Positions 22,433 to 44,040 of a stretch of DNA of 57,647 nt are shown here, in pieces. The DNA comes from a virus. The notes beneath the pieces are model-generated. The model was not told where the DNA came from. It ran no database searches and was given only the letters and a program-made list of their open reading frames with translations. The stretch covers positions 1-57,647 of IMG/VR virus record IMGVR_UViG_3300032322_001160. One strand, written 5' to 3'. The position numbers and the translations under genes are program-made. Numbering within the stretch: the first letter of the stretch is position 1; every line of letters starts with the position of its first letter.

Positions 22433-25400
22433 TTAAATGTATTTACGCTTACCGGGGAGCTTTTTACCGACTCTACCGCCCTTGGCAAACTCGTCTACCG
22501 AACCTTTGATCGCGGACTCTGGCAGAACATACTCCGCCCAGTCATCCGGTCCGTTTTCTTCACGAATTAAATAGCCCGGCTCATACGGCGTTCTTTTGGC
22601 TTTACCTGTTTCTGGATCACGAACAGCCTTCAAGGTCTTAGGGTCACGCACAACCATATCACCATATAGACGCTTGGACTTGATTGTATATGGCGCTTTA
22701 TTCTTCTTTGCAGAATCTTCAGTAAAGACCCGCTGCCCCGGTTTGTACTTGAACTCCATCTCGTCCATCTGCTGCCGCATCTTTGCAGCACGATCGCGGA
22801 CGCTGTCGCCTAACGAAGTATGCACGTCCTGTAGCGTGGTCAACTCTTTACCAGCAACCTGCGACTCTTTCGCGCCCATCTTCGTCAAGGCCTTTGCCGC
22901 CTTTCGAACGATGCCACCGCCTGCAAAGCCCTGAGTGCCTTCTTTGTAGTTCTTGTACTGGCTATACAAATCACCCCAGTTGACTGTTGGACGATCTGCT
23001 TCGTCCAAGTTGGTCCCAGCACGATCATACCGATACGTTTCTGACGTGATCTTTCTAGGGCCTAGTGTGTCAAACAACTCAAACACTGCGCGTTGTTCTT
23101 CCGCACTCGGCGCACTGTTAAACTTTGACTTGACCTGAGTGACGTCCAAACCGTCTTCGGTAAATTCGGTCTGCACAGTTACCTGAGGAACACCCTTCTC
23201 ATTGCGCAGCGAGAAAATGCGCGCGCGTCCAGAAATAAAGCCCTCTTTACCGCCATGACCATAAGAGTCCTTGTACTTATAATCCCCGACAGAGTGTCTC
23301 ATCGCAGCACCCTCTAGCTCCACCGCATCAGGTGTCATGATCCGCACCCACTGCCTATTTTTGTCTATCTCGTAAACAGGCGTGGTGCCTTTAAAGTAAA
23401 TTTCTTTTGGAATCTTTTTGCCTTCCTTCGCCGTTTCTATCACCGTCTGCCAGTCACGCTTTAAACGCATGTTCTGCGCACCACGGATCACAGCATCAGA
23501 GAAGGTCATGCGCTCCAAATCCTTGAGTGATCCTGCTGCAACAATTGAAGCTATATCCTCTGCAACATTAGTCGGTTTTAAAAAGTCCATTGCAGGGGTT
23601 TGGGACAGATCGTAGATCGGCTGCTCCTTCGTCGCCGCATACAATACTGACTGCGCTCCGGGGTCTGTTTTACCCACACCACGAATAAAGTCTGTTTGCA
23701 ACTCGGGGGGAACCTCTTCCATTGCCTTTAGCAACTCCCCCAACCTCTTTCTTGCAGGATTAAAAGACGACTCCGCCAGTTCTTTCGAAGAATACGGATA
23801 AAGACTGCCTATATTGATATGCTCTGGCAGCACCCCCGCGTTCTCTAATGCTTGACGCTGTTCCGCCTCTACACGATTCGATGTTGTAAACCCGCCCTGC
23901 CGCCCCTCTGGCTTGTTATACACAATGCCTTTTAGCTTCGTTGCCTCATCGTAGACTCGTTCAAGGTCTTCTATCGCGGTAGGCCGTCCCGCACGTACGG
24001 CGTCTAAAACATAATCCCTGAAGAGATTTTTATCCTTGCCGTATACCCCTAAACGACCTTCAGTCAACGCTTCTCGAAAGGGATCGTTTGGCGTTCCAAA
24101 GTCTGTCGTAAAATATTTGCGACCCTTGGTTCGGATGAAGTCTGCGACAGTCTTGGCGTCCTTACCCGCTAGCCCTTCCGCCTTAGACAAACCCTGAACT
24201 ACCTCCTCTAGGTATTGATCTAGTTTAGAATCAAACCCCGCAGGCATAAAGTTCCCACCAGTTGGTTTGACCACGTACATCGGGCCTACACCTAGTTTGG
24301 CATCTAGTCGCTCTAATTTTTGCGCGGCTACCGGGCCGAGCTCTTCCAAGGCTTTCTTCGCGCCCGTCTTCACGCCCTTAGCCGTCTTACTGACCGTACC
24401 CGCTGGAATAGGCAACGGCAAGTACGAGCCCACCTCTTCAAAGCCCGCACCTTCTTTCGTTGCCTTCGTCATGCGCTTAGGCATGTAGTCGCGCAAGACC
24501 TCTTCCGTCGTGGCAAACTTCCTCGTCTTATCACTCTCACGGAAGATCGATTCGATGTCCCCCACTGATCCGGGGATCGCGGCCACTGAGCCGCGTACTG
24601 CCGACTCCAGATTTGACACACCTTCACCCATCACGTTACGCAACAGTCGCGCTGAATCAGACAAGACCGAACCCGTTCCCTTCTTGGACCTTAAGCCCGC
24701 CAAGGTATCCTTCGTAATCCCGCCTTCGCCAATCGCGATCTCGCCGTAAACAGGAGAACCCTCTGCGCGACGAACTAATCCACCTTTGCCATACTGCTGT
24801 ACGGGGACAGTGGCGGCGTCACTATCCCCCGATAACTTTTTTAGTAAAGCCCTCGATCGACTGTCCGCCACCTCACCCTCCGGCGGTGAACCCTCCGCTC
24901 GCGGTATCGCACCAATATACGCCTCACGGTCCGCATTGGCCTGATCAATCTTGGCGTACTCATTACCGATCAACTGATCAAAATATTCAGAGTACTGATC
25001 TAGCCCCGCCTGCTGTGCCCTCGACTTCGCCAAGTCCAACGTCGTAATGTTCTTGTTGTACGCTGCAACCAACGGATCAAACGTCTTGTTAATCGCCGCA
25101 TCCGTCGTCGTCTTGTTCACCGTAATCGCAGGACGCGTGTACTTCGGATACGCACGACCGGCGTTAAACGAACCAATCGCCGCTGCCGCCGCTGTCTTCA
25201 AAGCAGTCGCCTGCGTAACCTCCGCCTTCTGCGGATTCAATACGTCGTTCAAGAAGTTCATCGCAACATCACTCTTGGCACCATACAACGTACTCAACTG
25301 GTTGTACGTGTTCTGTGCCGCCGTCATGTCCTTCGTCTGACGCGCAATCTCCGGATCAAACAACGCCGCATTCATCTTCGAGAAGTCAACCGTGCTTATG

Positions 25401-27139
25401 TCCACCGGTGCAAACGCATCAATCTTCTGAGCCACTAACTGCTTACCCAAAATGTAGTCACGCATCGGATCAGGCTGCGCCGCGTCAATCGCCGACTGCC
25501 GCTGACCCAGCGCTTGCGTATACTTGTCCGTCTCAGTCTGCAACAACTGATCCAACTGCGACGCGTATTCAGTGAAGCCCGTGTTGGACGCCGCATCACG
25601 AGCCTTGGTCAACGCGCCGATGTTCGTCTCAAACGCCTTGATCGACGGTGCATACGCCGCAATCGTCTGCTGCTCATTGCGGAAGTCCGCTACCACCGCA
25701 GGCGCTACCTTGTACGCACGACCCGCGTTAATCGCATTGAACGCCGCCGTTGCCGCAGCCCTGTTGGCTGTTGCCTGAGTGCCCACGGTCAACGCATCGA
25801 CATCCGCCTTCTGCGGCACGACTATCGTATTGAAATAGTCTTTGACAAAATCCACGTCCTTGCCATACGCCGCCGCCAACTGGTTGTACGTGTTCAACGC
25901 AGCGTTGTACTCGTTCGTCTGCCGCGTTACCGACGCGGTGTATGGGTCAACCGGTGGTCCCACTGGCACACCCAATGTTGCAATGTCCGTTGCACCCGTA
26001 AATTCCGGCAACTTCAACGCCGTAAACTGCGCCTGTTGCAAACGCTGACGATACTGCTCAGGCGTCTCAAACGCCGCCGCCGCGCCCGTGAAGTACTTAT
26101 TCACGTACGCCTGATCCGCCTTGGACCTCGCTAACTCGGACTCCTGCTGAGCCAAGATCGGCTTTAGCTGCTCGACCAACGGCATATTGCCCTCGGCCAA
26201 GGCCTTGTTGTATTCGTTACGTACCGCCGTTGCATCCGCCTGCTGACGCGTGACAATGCCCTTATACGCCTCACCTACCTGCGCCTTGTCACCCACGCCA
26301 GATAACTGTTCCGGGGTCAGTGTCACGTAGTCCGCGTACGTGTAACCACCCGGCGTTACATTGGGCAAAGGCTCCGGTGCTGTCGGCGTAATCGTGCCAC
26401 CGCCCGTCGTTGGTGTACCCGTGTCCGCATACGGACTCGTTTGCAACGGACCCTGATACGTTTCTAACCCGCCATAGGTGATGCTCGGCTCATACCGCAC
26501 TAACGTCGGCTGTGCCTTCTGTAACTGTTCCTTCGTCAACAGTGTCGGTCTTTGGAACGTCTGGGCAGTCGGTGTGTACGCAGACGAACCCGTGGTGTAG
26601 TCCGGCATCGCTGCCATCGTCGAAGGATTGATCTGCTCAAACAACGACCGCGCTGTCGTCGTCGGTGCCGACACAGGCTGAGACAAAGTAGGCTGCGCGC
26701 CAATGCCCGCAATCGCCGGAGTCGGCGTGATGATGTTCGGGCCCGTGGGCGGTGTATACGTAGGCTGGAATGTCGGGATGTTGATCTGGCTCGGCGTACT
26801 TGCCGCCGTTGTCGGCTGCGACAAATTCGCACCGAACAAATTCTCCACCGGCGCACCCGCATTGATCTGCTTGTTGATGTCCAACAATTCCGGGAACGGC
26901 GTCTTCTGTACCTCACCACCGTCGGCAAAGGTCTGCAACATCTGTGCTGCCGTGCGACGCGGCGCAGGCGGTGTCATTGGTGTTGGCATAGGGCGCTGTG
27001 GGATGCGACTTAAAATCGCGGCAGAATCCTCTACCTCCCCGCCCTCTGCAAAATACGACACAGTAGGCTCCACTTCATTTTCCATACTGTCGTCATATGC
27101 TGACGACAAGTCGTCAATGGTCAGTTCACGCTCATCCAT
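22433..27139 (-). CDS. Giant virion-associated protein with PcfJ-like domain
   Basis: 1568 residues, between terminase and portal. The first 340 residues are Pro/Thr-rich and disordered. Two tandem helical repeats of about 195 residues follow (starting near 395 and 590), sharing NTYNQL, QKA(D/E)V and FNAGRAY-like cores. Around residues 1200-1360 lies a PcfJ-like signature: a His-x-Val-Gly-x-Tyr box with H1282 (RHSVGDY), then ARIFSLRN, PQVTVQTEF and TQVKSKFN. Five copies of an aromatic-A/G-x-GG-x-V motif occur at 30-36, 71-77, 783-789, 1405-1411 and 1551-1557. No enzyme motif is certain. A packaged internal protein is the best guess. Confidence 0.62.
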   Translation of the reverse strand: MDERELTIDDLSSAYDDSMENEVEPTVSYFAEGGEVEDSAAILSRIPQRPMPTPMTPPAPRRTAAQMLQTFADGGEVQKTPFPELLDINKQINAGAPVENLFGANLSQPTTAASTPSQINIPTFQPTYTPPTGPNIITPTPAIAGIGAQPTLSQPVSAPTTTARSLFEQINPSTMAAMPDYTTGSSAYTPTAQTFQRPTLLTKEQLQKAQPTLVRYEPSITYGGLETYQGPLQTSPYADTGTPTTGGGTITPTAPEPLPNVTPGGYTYADYVTLTPEQLSGVGDKAQVGEAYKGIVTRQQADATAVRNEYNKALAEGNMPLVEQLKPILAQQESELARSKADQAYVNKYFTGAAAAFETPEQYRQRLQQAQFTALKLPEFTGATDIATLGVPVGPPVDPYTASVTRQTNEYNAALNTYNQLAAAYGKDVDFVKDYFNTIVVPQKADVDALTVGTQATANRAAATAAFNAINAGRAYKVAPAVVADFRNEQQTIAAYAPSIKAFETNIGALTKARDAASNTGFTEYASQLDQLLQTETDKYTQALGQRQSAIDAAQPDPMRDYILGKQLVAQKIDAFAPVDISTVDFSKMNAALFDPEIARQTKDMTAAQNTYNQLSTLYGAKSDVAMNFLNDVLNPQKAEVTQATALKTAAAAAIGSFNAGRAYPKYTRPAITVNKTTTDAAINKTFDPLVAAYNKNITTLDLAKSRAQQAGLDQYSEYFDQLIGNEYAKIDQANADREAYIGAIPRAEGSPPEGEVADSRSRALLKKLSGDSDAATVPVQQYGKGGLVRRAEGSPVYGEIAIGEGGITKDTLAGLRSKKGTGSVLSDSARLLRNVMGEGVSNLESAVRGSVAAIPGSVGDIESIFRESDKTRKFATTEEVLRDYMPKRMTKATKEGAGFEEVGSYLPLPIPAGTVSKTAKGVKTGAKKALEELGPVAAQKLERLDAKLGVGPMYVVKPTGGNFMPAGFDSKLDQYLEEVVQGLSKAEGLAGKDAKTVADFIRTKGRKYFTTDFGTPNDPFREALTEGRLGVYGKDKNLFRDYVLDAVRAGRPTAIEDLERVYDEATKLKGIVYNKPEGRQGGFTTSNRVEAEQRQALENAGVLPEHINIGSLYPYSSKELAESSFNPARKRLGELLKAMEEVPPELQTDFIRGVGKTDPGAQSVLYAATKEQPIYDLSQTPAMDFLKPTNVAEDIASIVAAGSLKDLERMTFSDAVIRGAQNMRLKRDWQTVIETAKEGKKIPKEIYFKGTTPVYEIDKNRQWVRIMTPDAVELEGAAMRHSVGDYKYKDSYGHGGKEGFISGRARIFSLRNEKGVPQVTVQTEFTEDGLDVTQVKSKFNSAPSAEEQRAVFELFDTLGPRKITSETYRYDRAGTNLDEADRPTVNWGDLYSQYKNYKEGTQGFAGGGIVRKAAKALTKMGAKESQVAGKELTTLQDVHTSLGDSVRDRAAKMRQQMDEMEFKYKPGQRVFTEDSAKKNKAPYTIKSKRLYGDMVVRDPKTLKAVRDPETGKAKRTPYEPGYLIREENGPDDWAEYVLPESAIKGSVDEFAKGGRVGKKLPGKRKYI

Positions 27140-27179: not shown

Positions 27180-28646
27180 CTAATAATACTCATACACAAG
27201 CGAATCACTCGACTCTTCCTCGACATCGTCCGTCTGCAAGGTCACAAAGTTCCCCTGACGGAACCGCATCATCGCCTGTGTTGTCGAATCGACCATGTCG
27301 TCGTTGTCGCCATTGGGGAACGCCGCACACTCCTCGATCAACTCCTCCGCCCACTCCGTCTCCGGTGCCCAGACCATCCGGCTCTCAAACAAAGGGGCCA
27401 CCGCATGCGCCCGGCTGATCTTGTCCTGCCCGGCTCGCCTGCCACCGGGGTTGTACATCGTCACAGGAATCCCCACTCGACGCAACTCCTGCTGCAAAGT
27501 AACGCCCGTGGCCTTGGCCTCGATCAAGACATTGTCCGGATTCCAATAGGTGTACTGCTCCTTGGCAATCCGCTTTAACTCCGGAAAATCCCACCGACCC
27601 TTAACGACATCCAACAAAATAATGTTTGGACCCGAGTCCGCGTCCGGGACAAAAACACCCCACGTCGTGATCACCGAGAAGTCAGCCGTCTCTTTCTTCG
27701 AGTACGCCGTATCGTAACTCTGGATCAAATACTCACACTTGGGCGGGGAGTTGTGCGTCCATCGCTGCCACCACTCCCTTTTCAAAATGGCACCCTCTTC
27801 CGCCGTGGGCTGCTGCTGCCACTGCGCTTGCCACTTCCGAAGGCCAATCGACATCTTGACCTTCTCTAACTCCTCTAGCTTCCAGTACTCCGGCCACAAA
27901 GGCGTGTTGCTCGGCAAAATAGCCGGGAACTCCAATACCTCCCACTGGTCCGATTTCAACTGGCCTTGCTGCTTTAATAAGCGGCCCGACAGATCATCCG
28001 TCCGCCATCTTGTGTTAATGATAATGATCGAGCCGTCCGGCTGCAAACGCTGACGAGGGCCAGACGTGTACCACTCCCACGTGCCCTCCATCGCGGTGTC
28101 CGACAAAGCATCCTGTTCGTCCAAGATGTCGTCCAGAATCACCACGTTACCGCCACGGCCCGTCATCGCACCGCCCTTACCGATGAAGAACGCTTCACCG
28201 CCAGCATTCGTGTCCCACCGGCCCGCTGCCTTGGAATCCGCCGATAACGAGAAATCCGGAAACAACTCCCGATAACGCTCCTCCGCCACAAGATTTCGAA
28301 TCATCCGGCCAAAACGCTGCGCTAACTCCGCCGTGTGCGAACCGACAATGAGTTTCGAATCAGGCTTCTTACCCATCAGGTACGCGGGGAACAGATAACT
28401 GCCCATCTGGCTTTTGCCATGGCGGGGAGGCATAGCGATCATTAACCGCTTACAACGGCCCGCTACCACGTCGTCCAACTTCTTCGCGATCCGACGGTGA
28501 TGCTCGCCGACGATCATCTCAGGCCACACGTAGCGGCAGAAGTCCAGAAAGCTTGAAGTGGCGCGTTCTTGGGTTTCAAGCTGCAAGAGTCGGAGTTCGA
28601 GCTTTACGCGTTCGGCTTCAACGTCTTGTTGATTTGATAAGGTCAT
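27180..28646 (-). CDS. terL: Terminase large subunit (TerL)
   Basis: 488 residues from the ATG at 28646; a TTG at 28664 is an alternative, and neither has a clear ribosome site. MPPRHGKS (about 72-79) is the Walker A, VVILDD (about 168-173) the Walker B, and IIINTRWRTDD the coupling motif. The C-terminal nuclease has IQSYDTAYSKKETADFS (first metal Asp) and VLIEAKATG (second acidic residue), ending with MVDSTTQAMMRFRQG. It drives DNA into the prohead and cuts it. The gene is separated from TerS by a roughly 3.7-kb island, which is unusual because the two are normally adjacent. Confidence 0.93.
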   Translation of the reverse strand: MTLSNQQDVEAERVKLELRLLQLETQERATSSFLDFCRYVWPEMIVGEHHRRIAKKLDDVVAGRCKRLMIAMPPRHGKSQMGSYLFPAYLMGKKPDSKLIVGSHTAELAQRFGRMIRNLVAEERYRELFPDFSLSADSKAAGRWDTNAGGEAFFIGKGGAMTGRGGNVVILDDILDEQDALSDTAMEGTWEWYTSGPRQRLQPDGSIIIINTRWRTDDLSGRLLKQQGQLKSDQWEVLEFPAILPSNTPLWPEYWKLEELEKVKMSIGLRKWQAQWQQQPTAEEGAILKREWWQRWTHNSPPKCEYLIQSYDTAYSKKETADFSVITTWGVFVPDADSGPNIILLDVVKGRWDFPELKRIAKEQYTYWNPDNVLIEAKATGVTLQQELRRVGIPVTMYNPGGRRAGQDKISRAHAVAPLFESRMVWAPETEWAEELIEECAAFPNGDNDDMVDSTTQAMMRFRQGNFVTLQTDDVEEESSDSLVYEYY

Positions 28647-28702
28647 AGGTTTTGAATTTTGCAAAAATTTTTCTAGGCAATTGATTTTGCAGGGAAAGGG
28701 GG

Positions 28703-28718
28703 TGTTTCACGTGGAACC
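28703..28718. promoter_or_regulatory. parS-like ParB binding site
   Basis: TGTTTCACGTGGAACC differs from the bacterial consensus TGTTTCACGTGAAACA at two positions; its right half (GTGGAACC) is a known natural variant. It is the only such match I see in the window and lies in non-coding DNA 57 bp upstream of the TerL ATG. No ParA or ParB gene is recognised here, so host ParB would be the binder. See findings. Confidence 0.6.
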
Positions 28719-28859
28719 ATAACTCAAAACTTTTGAATTGGTAACTATTTGTGTGAAATCGGGCCAAGGCGTTCGCCAGCCAGACCGGGGGGCCATTTTT
28801 GGTTAGTGGGTACTCACTTCGCCGAGATGCTAGATAAATGGTCGCCGGGACTCTGCCCC

Positions 28860-29120
28860 CGGTCCACGGCCAGCGGCCCACGGGACGCGGCCAGCGGCCA
28901 GCTGGGAGCGGTCCACGGCCAGCTGATAGCGCGACGGCCCCGGCCAGCTGGGCCAGCTGGTAGCGGTCCACGGCCCCCGGCTAACGGCCAGCTGGGAGCG
29001 ATCAACGGCCAGCTGGGCATGTACTTAAGTACACGGCCCCGGGTCACGTACACGGCCCGCTGGGAGCGGCCAGCGGCCCCGGCCAGCTGGGCACGGACCA
29101 CGGCCCCCGGCCAGCTGGGC
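28860..29120. repeat. GGCC-rich degenerate tandem repeat with CCAGCTGG octamers
   Basis: A degenerate unit of about 21 bp (core GGCCAGCTGGGAGCGGTCCAC) recurs. The palindromic octamer CCAGCTGG occurs at 28898, 28944, 28953, 28988, 29009, 29083 and 29111, with near copies such as CCAGCTGA at 28919. A 12-bp palindrome GTACTTAAGTAC interrupts it at 29021-29032. Both strands are open for over 370 bp, but only as repetitive Gly/Pro/Arg frames with no ribosome sites, so I call it non-coding. Confidence 0.8.
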
Positions 29121-29250
29121 ACGGCCAGCGCGATACGTTTCAGGGATAACGGACCAAGGCCCACGGGGCCCGGTTCAAATTGCATAGGCGAAACGGGTTT
29201 TTGTGCTGGCCCCGGTTGCCAGTAACAGCGCCCAGCTAATGTACAGGCGA

Positions 29251-29274
29251 AAAAAAGGCCCGCCGAAGCGGGCC
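29251..29274 (-). terminator. UUCG-loop terminator after the W-repeat gene
   Basis: Minus strand GGCCCGC, TTCG, GCGGGCC, then at least six T. The 18-nt core is identical to that at 29928-29945. It lies 35 bp after the stop codon of the 178-residue gene. Confidence 0.85.
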
Positions 29275-29283
29275 AGAGGGTGA

Positions 29284-29301
29284 CGGGCCCAGCTGGGCCC
29301 G
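29284..29301. repeat. 18-bp perfect palindrome containing CCAGCTGG
   Basis: CGGGCCCAGCTGGGCCCG is a perfect inverted repeat sitting between the stop codon of the 178-residue gene and its terminator. It contains an outlying copy of the octamer of the repeat array. Confidence 0.75.
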
Positions 29302-29309
29302 CGAAGCGG

Positions 29310-29846
29310 TTACTTAACTTTCACGGTAATTTCGACGTCCGATAGCGCGTCGCGAATTTTGTCGGACCCGTTGTCGTCAAACCAATTATTAACGTGCTCA
29401 CCCACGTCCAGATTATCGTCAACCCACGATTCGATTTTATCGCTCAGGTTGTCGCCAATCCACTGCTCGATATACCCGTCCAGATTATCGTCGGCCCAGC
29501 GGTTTATTTTTTCGTCCATCAAGAAAACGTCGATTCGGGTATCGATTCGCTGATCGAGCTGGGCCGCGTCCGCCAACGCGGCGGCGATACGTGCGTCGAT
29601 TCGCTGATCGAGCTGGGCCGCGTCCGCAATGCGAATCCCGTCCGCTTGCGGGGCCGAGATATCAAGCTTTTCAATTTCGGCCGCGACAGTATTTAAAACG
29701 ACGTGCAAAAGGGTACGGGCCGCGATCGCGTCCGCTGAACTCATCGCATTAAGCATCTGCTCAGAGTAAGCGAAAGCTTGCTCTATTGTGTCGCGCTCGC
29801 CAAACATGCCCACGCGTATAGCGGCCGCTAAAGTGTATTTATCCAT
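29310..29846 (-). CDS. Island protein with internal repeats, function unknown
   Basis: 178 residues from the ATG at 29846, preceded by ATACAGGGATA. Two repeat systems are visible. A 32-bp direct repeat with 54-bp period encodes DAAQLDQRID(A/T)RI twice. Four tandem units of about 12 residues then follow the form W-x-(D/G)-DN (WADDNLDGYIEQ, WIGDNLSDKIES, WVDDNLDVGEHV, WFDDNGSDKIRD). Acidic and probably helical. Flanked by its own promoter-leader and terminator and much richer in GCG/GGCC words than the late genes. No family recognised. Confidence 0.62.
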   Translation of the reverse strand: MDKYTLAAAIRVGMFGERDTIEQAFAYSEQMLNAMSSADAIAARTLLHVVLNTVAAEIEKLDISAPQADGIRIADAAQLDQRIDARIAAALADAAQLDQRIDTRIDVFLMDEKINRWADDNLDGYIEQWIGDNLSDKIESWVDDNLDVGEHVNNWFDDNGSDKIRDALSDVEITVKVK

Positions 29847-29877
29847 GGTTTGTATCCCTGTATGAAAGTTGATCAAC

Positions 29878-29927
29878 GCGGGCATATGCCCGCCCGGAAA
29901 GTATAGCGCAAATCAGAAAAAAGAAAA
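29878..29927 (-). promoter_or_regulatory. Island promoter and leader hairpin, unit A
   Basis: A -10 TATACT at 29905-29900 lies 16 bp downstream of a T-rich TTTTCT at the -35 place. Downstream comes TTTCCGGGCGGGCA and a perfect 16-bp palindrome GCGGGCATATGCCCGC (29878-29893), then ATACAGGGATA before the ATG at 29846. The same order occurs at three other island genes. Confidence 0.55.
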
Positions 29928-32342: not shown

Positions 32343-32738
32343 AACCTTTTTGTGAAACTCTTCCCAATCAATTTTTGACAAGGGCCAGCGCGCGACACAA
32401 TCGGCCAGAATCCCACGCTTGGCAATATCTAGCACCTGCCCGCCCGTAAACAGCAACAACTCAGGCGCGCGAACTTTGGTGTTCACTTCCACGACAACAA
32501 AGGTCGGACACCCGAGCGCCGCATGCTTCATATGAAACGCATACTGATGCGGACTCAGGTTAATTTTCAGGCCCGCACTAACTACCTTCAACTCGATTAG
32601 AACGAAATGCGAATTCGGGAGCGCCACCAGTAGGTCCGGAATCCCCAAGTTCACCCGCGTTTCCAACCTCGTCAGATGAACCGTCGTCCAGTTCCGCTTC
32701 AATCTGTCGAAAAGCCGCTGCTCGTTTTTTCGTGACAA
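32316..32738 (-). CDS. PD-(D/E)XK nuclease (VRR-NUC-like)
   Basis: 140 residues. GIPDLLV (32-38, D35) and LIELKVV (47-53, E49 and K51) are the catalytic core, with E6 near the start and LSPHQYAFHMK as the later helix, as in VRR-NUC/Holliday-resolvase-like enzymes. It starts with TTG at 32738, 7 nt after AGGAG inside the TerS gene; the first ATG lies after the catalytic core. Its first 161 bp overlap TerS out of frame. Coupling with TerS suggests a role in packaging, for example resolving branched concatemers. Confidence 0.8.
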   Translation of the reverse strand: MSRKNEQRLFDRLKRNWTTVHLTRLETRVNLGIPDLLVALPNSHFVLIELKVVSAGLKINLSPHQYAFHMKHAALGCPTFVVVEVNTKVRAPELLLFTGGQVLDIAKRGILADCVARWPLSKIDWEEFHKKVLQTPEAVL

Positions 32739-33402
32739 GTGCCCGCTCCTCGCCCAATCCGCTCAAGTCCAAAAGCTCACCCGGATCAAATTCTACTTGG
32801 GGTTCGACGGGAATAGCTTCTTCTTCGACAACACGGGATTCCATTTCCAAAATCGCAGTAGGCGGCGGTCCGCCATAGATTTTCTTAATCTCTTCTAGCT
32901 TTTTCATTACCTCTTCTTTGCTCATGGAATCGATCGTGCCAATCCGCACTTCCTTGCGATCGACGTAGATGGTCCCTAGAGCCTGTCCACGGCGATATTC
33001 AGCCTGTACAGCCGCAGACCATGCCCCGGCCTCGATCGCCTTGTCACGGATCGTCTGAAGGTCCCGCATGTGCCGCTCGAAGTTCGTCCCATACTTCTCC
33101 GCCAATTCAGCCCTGAGCTCGTTAATGGCCGCTACAACGTGCGGACTACGGGCAGGGTCCATGAGCCGCGTAATCGCCTCACGAGCCGCGTTAGGCGTGT
33201 ACCCTGCTCGAATCGCCGCCTCTGTCCGCGTCATGGTCCCGTCGCGTGTTACGTACTCCTGAACAAAGGCCCATTCCTTCGGCGTGAGCAAAACTTCCTT
33301 CTTCCCTTTAACCCTTGGCGTTTTGGCAACCCTTTCCAGCACGTCCTCGGGCAGGCTGGGCATCGGGACCATCTTCCGGGTCTCCACTTTCCTTCGTGTC
33401 AT
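32578..33402 (-). CDS. terS: Terminase small subunit (TerS)
   Basis: 274 residues from the ATG at 33402 (after AGGGAGAG; a TTG at 33405 is an alternative). LTPKEWAFVQEYVTRDGTMT, RTEAAIRAGYTPNAAREAIT and SPHVVAAINELRAELAEKYG make the winged-helix DNA-binding domain of terminase small subunits. A central helical oligomerisation region (EVMKKLEEIKKIYGG) follows. The last 53 residues (acidic, Gly-rich) are encoded by DNA also used by the nuclease gene, so they look overprinted. It lies first in the late block. Confidence 0.78.
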   Translation of the reverse strand: MTRRKVETRKMVPMPSLPEDVLERVAKTPRVKGKKEVLLTPKEWAFVQEYVTRDGTMTRTEAAIRAGYTPNAAREAITRLMDPARSPHVVAAINELRAELAEKYGTNFERHMRDLQTIRDKAIEAGAWSAAVQAEYRRGQALGTIYVDRKEVRIGTIDSMSKEEVMKKLEEIKKIYGGPPPTAILEMESRVVEEEAIPVEPQVEFDPGELLDLSGLGEERALVTKKRAAAFRQIEAELDDGSSDEVGNAGELGDSGPTGGAPEFAFRSNRVEGS

Positions 33403-33786
33403 CAAGCTCTCCCTTTATATATTTCTTACCCTAAAAAAAAAAAAAAAAACTAAAAAAAGTTCCCGCGCGCGCACCCCGTAAATTTCCTATATACGCTTAC
33501 ACCCATACAGTTACCCATATAACAACAGTGATGTCACACCCGCATAAACACTACGTTCTTACGGTATTACGTCAATTACGTCAATTTTGGTGAAAAAAAA
33601 AGTAAAAAATTTTTGAGGGTAGAAAATATCTATAGAGTTCCACCGAAAGCCCCATTCCTTCCCTTTTTGTCAACTTTGACCCGTGATCCGTGGTCCGTGA
33701 CCCCTCATCCCTTACCATTCCAACAACATCCATTACCAATGCAGCAATATCTCTTCCCTTTTCAACAACATTCCCCCTACACTTAC
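33403..33786. other. A-tract-rich non-coding region ahead of the late genes
   Basis: 384 bp with no supported gene. On the plus strand it holds A17 (33433-33449), A7 (33452-33458) and A9 (33593-33601), a GCGCGCGC patch, a perfect tandem 9-mer (ATTACGTCA at 33566 and 33575) and one copy of a dispersed repeat (33674-33691). On the minus strand a TTGACA (33673-33668) has no good -10 at the usual distance. It sits between the early and late blocks, so it is a candidate origin or late-promoter region. Confidence 0.45.
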
Positions 33787-42276: not shown

Positions 42277-42511
42277 TGTCGTCGAAGTTTTTCCACAAGA
42301 CGATGGGCTGCGTGTCGCCTGCATACTTGAACACAAACTCGCGTTCAATGTATTCGGCGGCTTCTTGTTCGCCCATACTGTCCTCATCGACCAAGATGCG
42401 GATCATCCCAATCGCGTCGTAGACGAGGCGCTCGACTAATTGCTCGCCATGCCACGTTGTGCAGCTACCTAACTCAGCCGCTTTGAATTTTTGTAGTTCG
42501 AGAATTTCCAT
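42263..42511 (-). CDS. Small acidic protein
   Basis: 82 residues. Helical (LQKFKAAELGSCTTWHGEQL, VERLVYDAIGMIRILVDEDS, EAAEYIEREFVFKYAG) with an acidic tail. Overlaps the helicase start by 14 bp. Function unknown; probably made with the replication proteins. Confidence 0.6.
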   Translation of the reverse strand: MEILELQKFKAAELGSCTTWHGEQLVERLVYDAIGMIRILVDEDSMGEQEAAEYIEREFVFKYAGDTQPIVLWKNFDDNEDS

Positions 42512-44040
42512 TAGAACGGCGCTCCTTTCTGTTGTGGTGTTTCAAACGGTGTTTCTTGACGCGTGAACCGTGGTACGCGCCACGCTCTTACTGCTCTGCC
42601 CTTCAAGAACAAACTAATTGGCTCGCCCCCAAGATCACGAATCTTCTGTGCCATACGGGGTGCGGTCATGCCGCTAAACGCACTGCGCTTTAAATGTGCT
42701 TCGAGGTCCTTCATGCGAAAGTAAACACGAGACTCTTCTTCGTCCGTCCAAGGACGGCCCATGAGAATTTCCTCGCGGTCCATCGCTTGTTGCAAGTGCG
42801 TGGTGAACTCCTCTAGCAAATCTTGGAAGCGACCTGATTGACTGGTATCTTCAGGTGCGTCTTGGATTTGTTCGAGTTCAACCATCTCGCGTAGGAGGCC
42901 GTTTAAGAAGCCCTCCCAATCCTGACGGCGTAGTGTTGGTGGCAAGACGTTCAAGCGTTCGACGCAGGCCTTCTGGAATGCAGGTTGGTTGAAGAGTTGA
43001 TCCGTGTCTAATTCAATGCGCCTGCCGTTGACATCCAAGAACCACAGTGGTGGCTCAGAGTTGTACTTAGTCAAGCTTGATACCTTCGGTGAATCTGGGC
43101 CGTCAGCACCGATGCCGTGTCGGCGGGTGCGGCATAGACCGGAATTGCAGAAGGAGTTCAAGGGTGCGTCTTTGCACTTGTACTTGTAGTCCTTCTTTTG
43201 TATCTGCTTCGTGATCACCAACAGTTCATTTAAGGGCAGTGGTGGGCCCATGAACTTTTGGTTGTACTCCATGAGTTTGTCTTCCCAGTTGTTCGGGATG
43301 GACTTTTTGAGGTAGACCGCGATGTTAAATAGGCCGTTGTTGCGAGTGCCTTCCGGAAATCCCTGATTACATAACGCCTGCAGACAGGGCGGACCATCTT
43401 TGATGGGCGCGTCCGCATTTTTCTTTTCCGCTTCCGGATGAACGAGCGGCACTGGTTGTACATATTGTTCGTAAAGCCCAAAGAATTCGCTAAGGCTGGA
43501 AGCCTCGCCAGCATCATTGATCGCGTAACGCAGGGTTTCATCGCCCCCGAAATACGGAAGGTTAAGGAAGTTACCCGTGTCACCGCGCTCAACAAGGACT
43601 TCAGTTTGTTTCGGAAAAATTTCACGACCACTTTCTCCCAGTATGCTTGCACACGTGTTTAAGTAGCGCTGCATCTCTGCAGCGAATATCGGTTCTTTTG
43701 TAAACAGGAATACATGCGCGCCGCCTGACTTACTACGGCAGACAACAAGCGGTAGGTTTAACCGACGAATCTTTTCCACCAGACCTTTATGGTCCAGAGG
43801 GTACTGATCAATGTCAATGCAACCCCATATGCAAGTATTGTCAGGACGAATAGGAATGATGCCAAGAGAAGGCTCAGCACCCTGTAGGTGACGTTCCCAA
43901 AGGTCATCGGTTGGCGGGTTCCGTACAACAACTGCCTTGCCTGCTTGTTTGCCATTCCCCGTCTCTCGCTCTATTTTGTAGGTTCCATAGGCGATATTCG
44001 ACCCTTCGAATATCGACTTGAATTTGGCGATATCAGTCAT
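42511..44040 (-). CDS. Archaeo-eukaryotic-type primase (TOTE-like)
   Basis: 509 residues. IWGCIDIDQYP (D76 and D78) and CRSKSGGAHVFLF (H109) are the catalytic DxD and sxH motifs of the AEP primase fold; the surroundings resemble the TOTE primase domain. After about residue 210 comes a helical PriCT-like part (GTRNNGLFNIAVYLKKS) and a zinc-binding cluster (YKCKDAPLNSFCNSGLCRTR). A C-terminal domain could interact with helicase. It probably makes primers for the family A polymerase. No DnaB-type helicase domain is present. Confidence 0.82.
   Translation of the reverse strand: MTDIAKFKSIFEGSNIAYGTYKIERETGNGKQAGKAVVVRNPPTDDLWERHLQGAEPSLGIIPIRPDNTCIWGCIDIDQYPLDHKGLVEKIRRLNLPLVVCRSKSGGAHVFLFTKEPIFAAEMQRYLNTCASILGESGREIFPKQTEVLVERGDTGNFLNLPYFGGDETLRYAINDAGEASSLSEFFGLYEQYVQPVPLVHPEAEKKNADAPIKDGPPCLQALCNQGFPEGTRNNGLFNIAVYLKKSIPNNWEDKLMEYNQKFMGPPLPLNELLVITKQIQKKDYKYKCKDAPLNSFCNSGLCRTRRHGIGADGPDSPKVSSLTKYNSEPPLWFLDVNGRRIELDTDQLFNQPAFQKACVERLNVLPPTLRRQDWEGFLNGLLREMVELEQIQDAPEDTSQSGRFQDLLEEFTTHLQQAMDREEILMGRPWTDEEESRVYFRMKDLEAHLKRSAFSGMTAPRMAQKIRDLGGEPISLFLKGRAVRAWRVPRFTRQETPFETPQQKGAPF

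Follow-up and report, generated by a model that had tools for sequence, protein, structure and literature searches.

A strand-oriented 7-bp repeat array beside the terminase genes of freshwater and marine phages is a candidate packaging site

Why should a tailed phage keep every copy of one palindromic octamer, CCAGCTGG, at a single non-coding locus? The virus record analysed here is 57,647 bases long (we call the whole of it the window), and exact matches to CCAGCTGG start at positions 28898, 28944, 28953, 28988, 29009, 29083, 29111 and 29289 (28898-29296 overall, unstranded), with no further copies in the remainder. Chance would supply 0.97 copies in the window, and the highest number seen in 100 shuffles was 4. 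A first-pass annotation of this DNA had drawn attention to the cluster, to its rarity and to its non-coding setting, and all three observations stand: seven copies occupy 221 bp and an eighth lies in an 18-bp palindrome at 29284-29301, about one copy is expected per whole window against the eight counted, and the region falls between the terminase large subunit gene and an open reading frame (ORF) at 29310-29885, both on the minus strand. Our analysis thus confirms the octamer observation; it also reinterprets the repeating unit as a heptad, and the finding is broader than first reported.

The gap itself spans some 660 bp of non-coding DNA, from the terminator-bearing end of the upstream gene (29310-29885) to terL, with all features on the minus strand. 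For terL (27180..28646; PHROG 38, E=9e-113) the ORF caller placed the start at a TTG at 28664, although the ATG at 28644-28646 is likelier. The intrinsic terminator of the upstream gene occupies 29257..29274 (minus strand), and between it and the stop codon of that gene is the 18-bp palindrome CGGGCCCAGCTGGGCCCG (29284..29301, unstranded) that holds the eighth octamer, which therefore adjoins the terminator and stands outside the repeat array described below. A similar palindrome, GGCCCAGCTGGGCC, is found just before the terminator preceding the array in two relatives (L007 and L012), making three phages with the window. Elsewhere in the window, 22433-27139 encodes a 1568-aa protein between terL and the portal gene with a weak match to PcfJ (E=7e-4), and 42511-44040 encodes a primase of the AEP-TOTE type (Pfam E=3e-13).

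Comparison with close relatives indicates that CCAGCTGG is one lineage's spelling of a fast-changing array with a 7-bp pitch, and not a conserved signal. Upstream of terL the octamer is absent from L005 and L006, whose TerL proteins are each 99% identical to that of the window, and from L011 (95%), while L007-L010, L012 and L013 carry 5-7 copies each; with or without the octamer, the relatives L005-L013 keep a period of 7 in the same gap. The octamer was accordingly rejected as a functional unit. It arises wherever a unit ending in CCCAG abuts CTGGCCG, and exact matching combined with a circular HMM places all seven clustered copies (28898..29118, unstranded) at such heptad junctions, xxCCCAG followed by CTGGCCG. 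Absence from close relatives, which the first-pass annotation had named as the outcome that would tell against its array, is thus real for the octamer and does not extend to the heptads. The same comparison bears on the proposal that the cluster is a sink for a host regulator or a restriction enzyme reading CCAGCTGG. An eightfold excess over expectation confined to this locus would suit a sink, as would the depletion of six-base palindromes in the rest of the phage, but the loss of the octamer from L005, L006 and L011 with the heptads kept counts against it, and six-base palindromes summed over 22 arrays are only mildly in excess of shuffles (235 vs 172), leaving this proposal with hardly any probability. 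Genome-wide, the window is depleted in six-base (644 vs 935) and eight-base (164 vs 242) palindromes, which suggests restriction pressure. Palindrome enrichment was likewise tried and rejected as a signal in its own right, being mostly a by-product of the consensus (four-base palindromes over the 22 arrays, 806 vs 586 expected) and weak for six and eight bases.

What persists is an array of approximately 45 degenerate 7-bp units read in the direction of terL, located by autocorrelation, a circular HMM and a family model scan at 28846..29172 on the minus strand (edges approximate). Its units include CTGGCCG, TGGGCCG, TGGACCG, CTCCCAG and GGGGCCG, the family consensus is CGYGGNC, and an excerpt in terL orientation reads TGGTCCG TGCCCAG CTGGCCG GGGCCG CTGGCCG CTCCCAG CGGGCCG. 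Autocorrelation peaks at 7, 14, 21, 28, 35 and 49, and the gain of a circular model is 151 bits with 7 states and 52-61 bits for periods of 6 and 8-11; 100 dinucleotide shuffles scored under the 7-state model gave 15.6 +/- 4.9 bits with a maximum of 29.9. The repeat of roughly 21 bp that had been proposed gives way to a true period of 7 bp, 21 bp being three units. A coding repeat appears unlikely, as a 7-bp step together with 7-bp indels would break all reading frames and the relatives cannot be aligned there. RNA structure in the array did not rise above shuffles (z=-0.45), an Rfam search of the region returned no match, and neither did megablast against phage records.

A family heptad model, trained on 14 relatives with the nearest kin of the window left out and the phage DSL-LC04 included, singled out the same place: the best scan interval in the window scored 36 bits where the genome averaged -47 (sd 16), and scores above 10 bits occurred only at ~28.85-29.25 kb, on the minus strand. 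In the circular genome of DSL-LC04, itself part of the training set, the signal was confined to ~14.6-14.9 kb on the terL strand. IMG/VR holds many relatives of the window phage, and among loci found only through TerL the best of 13 tested periods was 7 in 54 of 68, a set that includes near duplicates and so does not count independent events. Scored by strand with the heptad model, which replaced a regular-expression count that was too weak, 56 of 69 loci carried the signal on the terL strand (13 of these 56 having belonged to the training set) and 0 on the opposite strand; the other 13 (L028-L032, L040-L043 and others) had no heptads by the model, and the array is hence not universal. Four CGTGGNC units in tandem turned up at 27 loci in a scan of IMG/VR. 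At 22 of these, one or both of the terminase genes (terL, terS) of this phage group are present; in L110 and L112 the units run counter to terL. Where gene order is altered to array-terS-terL (L103), the array stays with the terminase genes. Two relatives (L008/L009) have a small HNH-like gene inserted between array and terL, with the parS-like site discussed below changed, and L010 has a small ORF inside the array stretch.

Among named records, the TerL of the window is nearest to that of the metagenome-assembled DSL-LC04 (proposed Dishuiviridae, OR003939; 67%), followed by the pelagiphages of the HTVC023P type at ~54% identity. Both resemble the window in having TerS homologs and an array in the terS-terL interval. 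The DSL-LC04 record leaves the array gap without annotation (its gene at the position of the 1568-aa protein is annotated PcfJ-like), the papers on DSL-LC04 and the HTVC023P-type pelagiphages that we examined make no mention of repeat arrays, and a literature search of partial coverage found no description of such arrays in these phages. In the HTVC023P-type pelagiphages the word differs from that of the window: their arrays are built of GCTTGNN, as are the heptads of the isolate HTVC027P. A scan for four GCTTGMR units returned 88 stretches, and 74 of the 80 analysed carry HTVC023P-type genes, those nearby being mostly terS and a GP88-like gene. GCTTGNN arrays were present in approximately 21 of 22 TerL-found pelagiphage loci with at least 3.2 kb of upstream sequence, all of them on the strand that carries terL, and none was located downstream of where terL begins. 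In L086, L119-L198 and L326-L404 they often flank the GP88-like gene on both sides. Examining the middle unit given only its neighbours, we found GCTTG to be 95-99% fixed and the last two positions to be free (1.97 and 1.92 bits); in the TerL-found set, which was not picked by word, the contrast was weaker with the same pattern (0.2-1.1 vs 1.8-1.9 bits).

This division into five fixed and two free positions bears on a possible functionless origin, in which heptanucleotide repeats simply grew by slippage in a permissive non-coding gap. In many bacteria no long simple repeats are commoner than heptanucleotides, which are frequent in intergenic DNA and for which polymerase slippage has been proposed as the origin (reviewed in PMC4679880). 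Tandem CGTGGNC runs occur in genomes of many bacterial phyla (L207-L286) and are numerous in two acidobacterial bins; as the pattern was the criterion by which these bacterial arrays were selected, no weight attaches to their free position. Indels within the phage arrays are enriched in multiples of 7 (36/105 vs 23/153 in the flanks, from locus pairs that are not independent), with lengths of 7 and 14 over-represented. Neutral copies should vary evenly over all seven positions, however, and GCTTGNN does not; moreover, the same place and strand are kept in two lineages whose TerL is ~54% identical, and the consensus CGYGGNC is retained in most relatives despite strongly differing arrays and abundant indels. 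We therefore regard slippage without function as improbable, at about one chance in five, and slippage as the mode of growth, filtered by a putative reader, as likely. Many indels in the arrays have lengths that 7 does not divide, so such a reader would not require long-range register.

Two further elements lie between the array and terL. The first is a core box, approximately CCAAAAA-N-GG(C)C ... (G)GGC-N4-GCC(C) followed by GATTTCACACA (28742..28803, minus strand, from 30 aligned loci), which is common to most relatives with a constant internal spacing of ~43-44 bp and a variable distance to terL, and which, travelling with the array, may itself serve as the processing site or the promoter. 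Its presence, and the position of the array between the upstream terminator and terL, would be expected if the heptads formed an operator or upstream activating array for a late (terL) promoter. We consider this rather unlikely, as no sigma-70-type promoter was found, the distance from array to terL varies from ~0.2 to 2.4 kb across loci, and in pelagiphages the arrays are 1.5-5 kb upstream of terL, flanking a gene that runs the opposite way. The second element is a parS-like 16-mer, GGTTCCACGTGAAACA (28703..28718, minus strand), with 2 mismatches to TGTTTCACGTGAAACA. Such 16-mers occur near terL in 18 of 71 loci (the window, L005-L014, L019, L046, L048, L068, L076, L079 and L084), with four or five of them near the heptads in L019, L046 and L048; in these three loci a 15-bp tandem repeat, TAAACGAGCATAGGG, lies beside the heptads and the parS-like sites. 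A centromere-like site for ParB or an omega-type ribbon-helix-helix (RHH) protein would account for their proximity and for a pitch that matches the contiguous 7-bp WATCACW units of pSM19035 parS (PMC9499535), yet the parS-like site is absent from most relatives, and no match to ParB_N (E<=0.1) or RHH_1 (E<=1) was obtained in the window, where the controls matched; the window may be incomplete, and a host ParB is possible. Segregation, one of the roles suggested in the first-pass annotation, is weakened to a very small probability. The wider class to which it belonged, a cluster of protein-binding sites serving as an origin, a segregation site or a packaging site, is still the leading one and compatible with all findings, even though the octamer is not the conserved signal within it.

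In both lineages the array accompanies the terminase genes and has the orientation of terL; packaging is thus the purpose that needs the fewest assumptions, and TerS the protein to consider first as reader of the array. By position, by orientation and by analogy with T7 and P1, we infer that the array is an oriented recognition element in double-stranded DNA, most likely a packaging-initiation (pac-like) or concatemer-processing site, a reading to which we assign a probability of roughly 0.4. In this model the word is weak but present in many copies, each of which would engage a single DNA-binding head of an oligomer. TerS, with a helix-turn-helix (HTH) that differs between lineages, is the most plausible such oligomer, and once bound it would load the terminase onto phage DNA in terL orientation. 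The position of the array (the terS-terL interval in both phage groups), its strand and its many copies are in keeping with a site that loads an oligomeric DNA-binding protein. In the window terS (32578..33405, minus strand; Pfam Terminase_2, E=7e-9; phrog_51) encodes a protein with an N-terminal HTH, and set against the word, the HTH and its recognition helix are variable between lineages, which is compatible with TerS as a candidate reader but does not decide the matter. Contig ends are enriched 0-900 bp upstream of terL, in the array stretch (16 of 36, vs 4 of 37 downstream), an excess that could stem from genome ends or equally from assemblies broken by repeats and strain variation. Several points weigh against the packaging reading, among them the loci without heptads, the opposite runs in L110 and L112 and the array indels out of step with 7. 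The domains of SF6 TerS bound pac repeats without sequence preference, a warning that binding to such repeats may be unspecific (PMC4737164). The distance to terS counts as well.

In the window terS lies ~4 kb from the array, whereas classical pac sites are in or beside terS. The competing possibility that the heptads are iterons for an initiator, at a replication origin unwound or primed there, would be served by the close packing of direct repeats at a single non-coding locus in each genome, and by a phage that encodes its own polymerase, helicases and primase-like protein. Cumulative GC skew, which had been proposed as a check for an origin, shows no turn at 29 kb; it is negative across the array and flattens only near 34-38 kb, a weak test where most genes run one way. 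An initiator gene was not recognised, and a constant terL-wise orientation, even with terS on the other strand, is unexpected of an origin, which we hold to be improbable and on a level with functionless slippage. Returning to packaging, a more ambitious proposal is that two highly abundant groups of aquatic phages share a class of DNA-recognition array not described before in viruses. Its words, at a pitch of 7 bp, would each combine several fixed bases with one or two free ones; the word would be exchanged from lineage to lineage, with pitch, place and strand retained, and the reader would be a terminase oligomer whose own step is likewise 7 bp. This is somewhat doubtful, and we put it forward tentatively.

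To our knowledge, the way in which phages mark their DNA for packaging has been worked out in just a handful of models, and the sequence specificity of TerS is still disputed. A conserved array of strict pitch with lineage-specific words, shared by freshwater and marine (SAR11) phages and carried by an isolate (HTVC027P) and a circular genome (DSL-LC04), is a testable packaging candidate. If the array is a pac site, its word would predict TerS specificity, and the direction in which metagenomic phages are packaged could be read from it. A neutral array would represent an unusual 7-bp repeat bias that keeps its place and strand across diverged phages.

Several known systems share features with the array. 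T7 resembles the window in repeating a short conserved word at fixed pitch in non-coding DNA: on NC_001604, CCTAAAG recurs at 175-332 with a pitch of 13 (z=9.1), beside the left genome end and terminal repeat. The word is unrelated, however, the genome end is mapped there, and the array of the window, with its pitch of 7, does not match a T7-type heptamer at ~13 bp. P1 pac, with seven TGATCA/G repeats inside the small-terminase gene pacA (PMC10028697), and SPP1 pac, with three sets of direct repeats (PMC4737164), are likewise repeat-bearing recognition sites tied to terminase genes, and the portions of these sources available to us describe no long array of 7-bp pitch for either. Closest in pitch is pSM19035 parS, in which 7-10 contiguous, unspaced WATCACW units of fixed word and mixed orientation are bound by an RHH ParB (PMC9499535); the window shares the contiguous 7-bp units, several per site, but has ~45 of them, degenerate and all oriented alike, and no RHH protein was found in it. 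Finally, the TAACTGA repeats of Beggiatoaceae (PMC4679880) are also tandem heptanucleotides in intergenic DNA, but they are dispersed over many loci, whereas each phage has one oriented locus with both free and fixed positions.
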